Positions 59,343 through 61,092 of a stretch of 64,000 nt of DNA are shown here, piece by piece; within the stretch, counting starts at the first letter, position 1; the number at the start of each line of letters is the position of its first letter. The stretch covers positions 11,982 to 75,981 of the forward strand of contig VXMJ01000093.1 of NCBI GenBank assembly GCA_009841145.1. The letters run 5' to 3'. The notes beneath the pieces are model-generated. The model saw nothing but the letters and a program-made list of their open reading frames with translations. It was not told the origin of the DNA and did no database searches. The stretch comes from Caldilineaceae bacterium SB0661_bin_34 (GTDB lineage: Bacteria > Chloroflexota > Anaerolineae > Caldilineales > Caldilineaceae). A program made the translations under genes and the position numbers.

Positions 59343-59389
59343 AAATGTGTTTTGCCTCCCGTAGCTCGATTGTAGCAAAGGAAAACAAC

Positions 59390-60992
59390 GGGAATTACAT
59401 ACCTGACTAAGCACCGGATGCGTACTACAATAAGCAGAAGCCGCGGGTGTTGAGATCACCGCGCGGCTCCCAGACAGTCAAGGTTCAATGACAACCTTAC
59501 CTGCCAAACCCCATTCTACAACCGAGAACCGTGCGGAGCGGTACCGTATCCGGTTCGACAAGCGCGCCCATGCGGCCAAGTGCGCCCAGATCGCGGGTGC
59601 GTGCAGGCTGGTGTGGAACATTCTGCTGGCCGATTGTGAGCGGCGGTATCGATTGAGTCGTGAGTTGGGGATCGATGACAATGGCGGACATCCCATCGAC
59701 AAGTCCGTCTCGTTCTTCACGCTGGGCAAGCGGTTCACGGATTTGCGAAGCAGATCCGACGCGGCGTGGGTTCGGGATTTCATGGATTCACCGCAGGGAA
59801 AGCGGTACCGGGACATGGATCTGTCCTGGCTGCGGGACATGCCGTATGCACCGCTCCGCTACACTGCGAAGTACCTGGCCGACGCGTACACGCGCTTCTT
59901 CAAGGTGTGGGCAGAAGCCAAGTCGGAAGGGACTCCCCTCGGCCGGCGCCAGTCGGACGGCAAGCCCAAGGGGTTTCCGAAGTACAGGAAGAAGTTCGAC
60001 CGCGACGACGGGTTCGCCATTCCCGGCGACGTGCGCATGGACGGAGACCGGATGCACATCCCGAAGGTGGGGTGGGTGCGCCTGGAAGGGAGCGGGTTGT
60101 ACCGGGGCTGCAAGCCGAAGCAGGTGCGCATCCGGAAGGAAGGCACAGAGGATCGCCCCAAGTGGTACGCCTACGTGTTCTACGAAGTGCCGCCGGACCA
60201 TTTGAAGCAACCTGCCTGGACTGGCGCGATTGGCTTGGACCGGAACGTAGGGCAGGCCACCGACAGCGACGGCGAGGTGTACGAGACACCCGACGACCCG
60301 CAGCTGGAGGGGAAGATCAAGCGCAAGGAACGGAAGAAGGCCAAGTCGCTGGCGCGTTCCAAGGCCAACGGCAAGCCCGTGTCCAACCGCGGTCGGCGCA
60401 TAGGTGGACAGTTGAAGAAACTGAAACGCAAGCAGAAGCGTCGCCGGGAGAACGCCGCCCACCAGCACAGCCGCAAGATGGCCGACACGGCGCACACCGT
60501 GGTCATTGAGGACCTGGACATCAAGGACATGACCAAGAGCGCCAAGGGTACGGTGGAAGAGCCCGGCAAGAATGTAAAGCAGAAGGCCGGACTCAACCGC
60601 GAGATCCTGAAATCCAACTGGGGCCGCACGGAGCGGATGCTGGACTACAAGGCGGGGCAGGTACTGAAGGTTCCACCTGCCTACACGTCGCAGACCTGTG
60701 CGGCGTGCGGACACGTCGGCAAGGAGAATCGCAAGACACAGGCACACTTCCGATGCACGGCGTGCGGACACACTGCGAACGCAGATCGCAATGCCGCTCA
60801 AAACATCCTGGAGCAGGGCCTGGCCCTGCTCCCGAAGGCCCGCGGGAATGGGGCTTCTGCACGGCGAGAGGCGCTCGATCCCTGTTTGTTGCCTGGAGCA
60901 ACCGGCAAATCGACTTCTATGACCCGTGAACAAGGCATGCTGGCTACACTGGAGCCTCCGGGTTCCGGTGCTTAGTCAAGTATGTAATTCCC
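59390..60992 (+). mobile_element. TnpB-bearing element B with 28-bp TIRs and 8-bp TSD
   Basis: gggaattacatacctgactaagcaccgg (59390-59417) vs reverse complement of 60965-60992 gggaattacatacttgactaagcaccgg (27/28); aaaacaac at 59382-59389 and 60993-61000. Confidence 0.93.
59488..60975 (+). CDS. tnpB: RNA-guided endonuclease TnpB (IS605 OrfB family)
   Basis: RuvC motifs GLDRNVG, VIEDLD, ADRNAA; zinc finger CAACGHVGKENRKTQAHFRCTACG. Confidence 0.95.
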   Translation: MTTLPAKPHSTTENRAERYRIRFDKRAHAAKCAQIAGACRLVWNILLADCERRYRLSRELGIDDNGGHPIDKSVSFFTLGKRFTDLRSRSDAAWVRDFMDSPQGKRYRDMDLSWLRDMPYAPLRYTAKYLADAYTRFFKVWAEAKSEGTPLGRRQSDGKPKGFPKYRKKFDRDDGFAIPGDVRMDGDRMHIPKVGWVRLEGSGLYRGCKPKQVRIRKEGTEDRPKWYAYVFYEVPPDHLKQPAWTGAIGLDRNVGQATDSDGEVYETPDDPQLEGKIKRKERKKAKSLARSKANGKPVSNRGRRIGGQLKKLKRKQKRRRENAAHQHSRKMADTAHTVVIEDLDIKDMTKSAKGTVEEPGKNVKQKAGLNREILKSNWGRTERMLDYKAGQVLKVPPAYTSQTCAACGHVGKENRKTQAHFRCTACGHTANADRNAAQNILEQGLALLPKARGNGASARREALDPCLLPGATGKSTSMTREQGMLATLEPPGSGA

Positions 60993-61092
60993 AAAACAAC
61001 ACCGTTTGAACGCGAGGGTCGGGTCGGTTTACGGGGAGCGCGGGACGCGGTGCGCACAGGGAACCGCGATCAGCGCAAATGCGCAGTCATGT

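Follow-up and report, generated by a model that had tools for sequence, protein, structure and literature searches.

A transposase-less IS1595-type cassette carrying tnpB in Caldilineaceae, with a one-sided flanking G as candidate TAM

What kind of mobile element carries the tnpB gene that we found in a 64,000-nucleotide stretch of DNA from Caldilineaceae bacterium SB0661_bin_34 (the window), and could the encoded protein act on behalf of its carrier? IS200/IS605, IS1341 and IS607 elements have neither terminal inverted repeats (TIRs) nor a target-site duplication (TSD), and use a Y1 or serine transposase. Cas12 descends from TnpB, the role of which has been investigated in elements whose transposase target is itself the TAM, a setting in which selection by TnpB is inseparable from transposase choice. 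Three groups of bacterial TnpB elements are distinguished, IS605, IS607 and IS1341 (PMC9956272). The window element differs from these groups in having TIRs and TSDs and in lacking a Y1 or serine transposase.

Ends, insertion site and gene of the window element

The element extends from 59390 to 60992 (1603 bp; other features are listed in Table 1). The initial annotation had described TIRs of 28 bp, matching at 27/28 positions; the TIRs are there, but the real arms are one base longer, being 29 nt each and complementary at 28/29 positions. The perfect 8-bp TSD that it reported, aaaacaac, is indeed present at both element edges. Both ORF and profile checks agree with tnpB as the sole gene, the stop codon of which (TAG at 60973-60975) lies inside the right TIR, also as described. 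In the source genome (G000, a draft in 102 contigs with a completeness of 98%), the 18-nt core of the TIR, searched with at most two mismatches, gave 35 matches while a reversed control pattern gave 0, so the TIR is not a chance feature. Copies with boundaries off the TIRs, or a TnpA-type structure setting other ends, had been named as observations that would speak against this architecture. We looked for both: the paralogous copies in G000, which share 69-84% DNA identity, stop at the TIRs, and no such structure was found to define other ends. One copy, on C101, is flanked by another perfect 8-bp TSD, catcgttt. The second, diverged element in the window has the TIRs GGGGCTTATATCGAATAGTTGAC / GGGGCTTATATACAATGGTTGAC and a degenerate TSD, AATACGAA/AATTCGAT, with 6/8 positions matching.

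Table 1. Positions of the tnpB cassette, its flanks and the second element in the window
Feature	Position	Strand	Remark
GG	59380..59381	+	directly 5' of left TSD; conserved -9 G (candidate TAM) at 59381
Left TSD copy, aaaacaac	59382..59389	.	single 8-mer at empty sites
Left TIR, IS1595-type, GGGAATTACATACCTGACTAAGCACCGGA	59390..59418	+	
tnpB	59488..60975	+	495 aa; conserved RuvC residues D251/E341/D433 and zinc motif of four Cys
3' part of candidate omega-RNA scaffold, CCCGTGAACAAGG then terminal stem	60923..60992	+	overlaps tnpB 3' end and TIR; conserved in sequence and stem among right ends
Candidate omega-RNA terminal stem, 5' arm GCATGCT	60935..60941	+	
Right TIR	60964..60992	-	29 nt
Candidate omega-RNA terminal stem, 3' arm AGTATGT	60979..60985	+	inside right TIR, 7 nt before boundary
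Right TSD copy, aaaacaac	60993..61000	.	predicted first 8 nt of guide
Predicted guide region, AAAACAACACCGTTTGAACG	60993..61012	+	length assumed; deduced from where the element ends and the candidate TAM lies
Second diverged IS1595-type tnpB element	16378..17838	-	1461 bp, 460-aa TnpB frame, G at -9

Empty sites carrying one copy of the 8-mer had also been anticipated, and three other species of the genus (G001, G002, G003) provide them. The right flank of the window element is 91-94% identical in these genomes, the element is missing, one 8-mer stands at the junction, and the alignments run through the junction unbroken. The GG preceding the TSD in the window is also found at the empty orthologous sites, so it most likely belonged to the target before insertion.

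About half of the complete end pairs have no matching TSDs. In G000 and G003, single insertions have their two TSD copies on different contigs, as with ataccttc on C16 and C42, and in the genome G020 the 8-mer to the right of one cassette (L091, CTATGATA) is also found to the left of another (L094). These swapped 8-mers suggest that recombination between copies rearranges the G020 chromosome. L091 and L094, together with L096, L136 and L151, are among many cassettes of this genome without matching TSDs.

The window protein has the Pfam domains Cas12f1-like_TNB, OrfB_IS605 and HTH_OrfB_IS605, scores 190 bits with the NCBIfam model guided_TnpB (cut-off 100), and is matched by sequence by solved TnpB and Cas12f chains. 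In an alignment of 20 proteins, D251, E341, D433 and Cys404/407/423/426 are invariant, and the protein is presumably an active nuclease. The window tnpB is intact and under purifying selection, with dN/dS of 0.31-0.34 against its paralogues (0.13-0.44 for tnpB overall) and with open frames kept in most full-length copies. Downstream, between the element and ABC transporter genes, positions 61093-61123 form a perfect 15-bp inverted repeat with a 1-nt loop, possibly a terminator.

IS1595-type relatives and the source of transposase

In Caldilineaceae there are autonomous elements that have nearly the same ends and 8-bp TSDs and encode DDE transposases of the IS1595 family. On this basis the window element is a transposase-less (non-autonomous) IS1595-type cassette carrying tnpB, which bears out, and gives a family to, the earlier description of a DDE-style element. 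We call it a cassette and not an IS1595 element because only tnpB is encoded, the IS1595 transposase gene (PF12762, PF12760) being absent. The autonomous elements L097, L098 and L099 have TIRs of the GGGAATTATATACTTGAC type, perfect 8-bp TSDs and transposases matching PF12762 and PF12760; the window TIR, GGGAATTACATACYTGAC, is close but not identical to GGGAATTATATACTTGAC in L097 and L098, whose ORFs match PF12762. Among 46 genomes of the order, two genera account for most matches to both PF12762 and the TIR pattern, with few scattered matches elsewhere. Thirteen autonomous IS1595 elements with perfect TSDs were collected, their ends being re-detected on longer stretches. In all four autonomous IS1595 elements from Caldilineaceae that were scanned for larger cargo (L097, L099, L222, L233) this consisted of DNA methyltransferases, and that of L097 also includes a MvaI/BcnI-type endonuclease, i.e., restriction-modification as transposon cargo.

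The cassette shares with the IS1595 family (ISXO2-like DDE), including members with passenger genes, the TIR type, the 8-bp TSD and an AT-rich target. Its autonomous relatives carry a transposase, methyltransferases and a restriction enzyme, whereas the cassette carries tnpB and a candidate omega-RNA without a transposase. Mobile insertion cassettes and other non-autonomous IS derivatives likewise hold a passenger gene between IS ends and are moved in trans; unlike theirs, the cargo here would act on the element's own insertion site.

We sought an autonomous partner in the source genome by the TIR pattern. The expectation of a DDE element sharing the TIRs held only in part: near-identical TIRs occur with a DDE transposase in relatives, but exact TIRs with an intact transposase were not found in G000. 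Intact IS1595 transposases are present in G003 and genus g2; none was detected in G000 or in the copy-rich G020, and no autonomous element with exactly GGGAATTACATAC ends was found in genus g1. Because G000 has three IS1595 remnants and G020 one, the tnpB cassettes of these two genomes would depend, or would once have depended, on transposase from elsewhere. Mobilisation in trans, as the initial annotation presumed, is consistent with the existence of transposase-bearing IS1595 relatives and with the absence of Y1 transposases (PF01797) from G000, G001, G002, G003 and G020. The one DDE gene lying beside a TIR, in L053, was considered as mobiliser and rejected; it belongs to an IS982-like DDE element (DDE_Tnp_1; L053:493-1518, G000:C42) that interrupts a family C tnpB element at its end and is flanked by what looks like a 9-bp duplication, tcaggaata.

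The one-sided flanking G and the candidate omega-RNA

Flanks were compared in tnpB orientation for 78 distinct left ends and for 72 on the right. At position -9 from the left end, directly 5' of the TSD, 76/78 have G, against 19/72 at the mirrored right position (Fisher p = 9e-22, an indicative value, as kin sequences are not independent). In subfamily C the mark is GG|A (GG 14/14, A 13/14) and in subfamily B it is G|A (G 20/20, A 18/20), while subfamilies A and D have G alone (12/13 and 30/31, respectively). In a separate genome collection, in which some Caldilineaceae loci repeat earlier ones, we found G in 16/17 loci, including 8/9 outside Caldilineaceae. TSD positions 2-3 and 6-7, on the other hand, are A/T on both sides, a symmetry that fits a preference of the transposase.

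Insertion of an IS605 element adds nothing, so the empty site brings TAM and guide sequence together. For an element that makes a TSD, the empty site consists of the left flank, one TSD and the right flank, and a guide read from the right boundary (TSD plus flank) would thus need its TAM directly 5' of the TSD, which is where the -9 G lies. By this position and the flank statistics the G (GG|A in C) is a candidate TAM of TnpB, and the proposal in the initial annotation that the guide is read from flanking DNA gains in plausibility, since a conserved left-flank G occurs where the TAM of such a guide would have to be. A role of the G at the DNA level would be natural because the left flank is not expected in the omega-RNA. 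A one-base TAM common to two distant TnpB lineages would be unusual, so the transposase may contribute.

An alternative would be that the cassette is of the IS1595 type but the one-sided G reflects a transposase that reads the two ends differently, TnpB having no part in persistence. The occurrence of the same G in two very distant TnpB lineages would agree with this, as would its presence at 12/26 flank positions of autonomous IS1595 elements (both sides pooled), which is more than a quarter. The autonomous elements, however, show no significant asymmetry (G at 7/13 left and 5/13 mirrored right positions, p = 0.70), and they differ from the tnpB elements (p = 6e-5, for few autonomous elements of mixed TIR subtypes). 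Moreover, near-identical TIRs at both ends would be expected to give a two-fold symmetric preference, such as the one at TSD positions 2-3 and 6-7, and the mark changes with the TnpB subfamily, being GG|A in C. We consider a mere transposase preference unlikely, and favour the G as candidate TAM.

At the right end, we observed a stem of 7-9 bp (6 bp in a few cases), with its 3' arm in the TIR and ending exactly 7 nt before the boundary. The arms are GCATGCT/AGTATGT in family A, GTATGCC/GGTATAT in B, ATGGGCCGG/CCGGCCTAT in C and ATATACTTG/TAAGTATAT in D, with two-sided changes between families in 4/7 outer stem pairs. A perfect helix of at least 7 bp with the 7-nt spacing was found at 44/51 right ends as compared with 9/65 left ends. 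In family D the palindrome is present at the right end only, though the TIRs are otherwise alike. Taken together, these stems suggest that the right TIR probably doubles as omega-RNA scaffold, thereby serving both transposase and guide RNA. The initial annotation had reasoned that any omega-RNA scaffold would need to extend across the end of tnpB and into the TIR, and the covarying stem points in the same direction. The stem was scored by arms and spacing, because RNAalifold on the whole set performed poorly owing to different loop lengths; an Rfam search of the right end returned no omega-RNA match. We also considered a scaffold that includes the TSD, an idea put forward for Fanzors, and rejected it, given that the asymmetric conservation lies outside the TSD.

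The mechanism that we propose would begin with an IS1595-family DDE transposase that, acting in trans, recognises both TIRs and inserts the cassette into AT-rich 8-mers, which are duplicated. Transcription through the tnpB 3' end would give rise to an omega-RNA in which the right TIR forms the 3' arm of the last stem, and in which a 7-nt linker would lead directly to the guide, copied from TSD and right flank. If the element were lost, or a sister copy were unoccupied, the restored site (...G|TSD-flank) would match guide and TAM; TnpB would cut it, and recombination would copy the element back. Only insertions adjoining a G by chance would be kept, which would account for the one-sided G. This explanation as a whole, i.e., a non-autonomous IS1595 cassette with TnpB and omega-RNA as cargo, mobilisation in trans and guided retention, appears highly probable to us. 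It is also fairly likely, if less so, that IS1595-type DDE transposons captured TnpB at least twice and that TnpB acts as a retention filter writing its TAM into the flanks: as the transposase would not choose TAM sites, survivors would be found only beside a TAM (G or GG|A). In that case the TAM would be recorded in natural insertion flanks, one TSD length from the element.

Spread of the cassettes and relation to known systems

The tnpB cassettes occur in tens of copies in Caldilineaceae and have relatives in Alpha- and Gammaproteobacteria. Relatives of the window TnpB were gathered with a protein alignment as query, a single-protein query having given none. The window lineage is a supported clade of 26 proteins, 24 of which lie in elements with IS1595-type ends; hosts are Chloroflexota, Alpha- and Gammaproteobacteria, Dadabacteria and Rhodothermota (in the last two, the right end alone was seen), and many members come from metagenomes, several apparently sponge-associated. 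The complete G020 chromosome has 69 TIR ends, with tnpB cassettes of 1.3-1.45 kb plus shorter deletion forms. Its TnpB belongs to a different lineage, from another genus, that shares 31% identity with the window protein over 205 aa and sits on a branch of 2.5 changes per site. The simplest reading of the tree, which is midpoint-rooted, is that IS1595-type elements probably captured TnpB twice.

With the TnpB elements of the IS200/IS605, IS607 and IS1341 groups the cassette has in common the RuvC triad and a right-end omega-RNA (a candidate here), while its candidate TAM is separated from the left end by the 8 bp of the TSD. Another reading would make it an IS1341-like tnpB element that derives from IS200/IS605 or IS607, is moved in trans by a Y1 or serine transposase and has its TIRs and TSD by coincidence. 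This would fit the classical carriers of tnpB and the IS607-type serine recombinases that exist in G000, but is extremely improbable: many independent copies have perfect 8-bp TSDs, the TIRs resemble those of IS1595 elements, empty sites have one 8-mer (TSDs and empty sites already refute such an origin, unless a Y1 or serine enzyme were to make 8-bp duplications), no Y1 transposase occurs in five genomes, the element has no serine recombinase gene, and the TnpBs near the G000 serine recombinases are only ~27% identical. G000 has 30 serine recombinase matches, some of them at contig ends; several are ~200-230 aa long with an N-terminal helix-turn-helix as in IS607 transposases.

In IS200/IS605 elements the guide starts at the right boundary (PMC10711439), as we would expect for the window element. 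TnpB retention and plasmid gene drive have been described for IS200/IS605, where the TAM is the transposase target motif (PMC11870625). The proposed logic is the same, namely that TnpB cuts element-free sites so that the element is copied back (PMC11870625), except that here the transposase would not supply the TAM, and retention would appear as a filter on insertions. Transposase target and TAM would thus be separate, and survival that depends on TnpB seems to have left its record in natural insertions.

In eukaryotes, DDE and other TIR/TSD transposons carry Fanzors, and TIR and TSD have been proposed as their scaffold (PMC3627910, PMC10711439); by definition they have a eukaryotic or viral host and DPG/Ealt active-site signatures (PMC10711439). 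The window protein is a bacterial TnpB by profile, and the comparison with Fanzors concerns the way of working. Like the cassette, Fanzor1 and Fanzor2* are RNA-guided nucleases in TIR/TSD transposons, some of which lack a transposase, with the TIR in the guide-RNA scaffold as proposed here (PMC3627910, PMC10711439). Whereas the TSD is a proposed scaffold part in Fanzors, in the cassette, with its bacterial TnpB, the variable TSD appears to start the guide. The cassettes would be a bacterial counterpart to Fanzors in DDE-type transposons, the TIR probably doubling as guide-RNA scaffold, and would offer compact nucleases with a very permissive candidate TAM. In the openly accessible literature we found no report of TnpB with IS1595/ISXO2 or another bacterial DDE carrier; subscription literature and ISfinder were outside this search, and thus priority for the link between TnpB and IS1595 cannot be asserted. 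The initial annotation is right in substance; the family is IS1595-type and widespread, and the flank statistics give a specific mechanism.

Lastly, several G020 cassettes (L087, L089, L090, L145, L147, L154, L161) contain, ~150 bp inside the left end, a ~38-bp palindrome, GGGAATTATGTACGTACGCAGTTAAGTACATAATTCTC, that resembles two back-to-back TIRs. The same genome holds short derivatives, L152 and L093 (222 and 372 bp, respectively), in which the same TIRs enclose little tnpB sequence or none, and L152 is flanked by a perfect 8-bp TSD.
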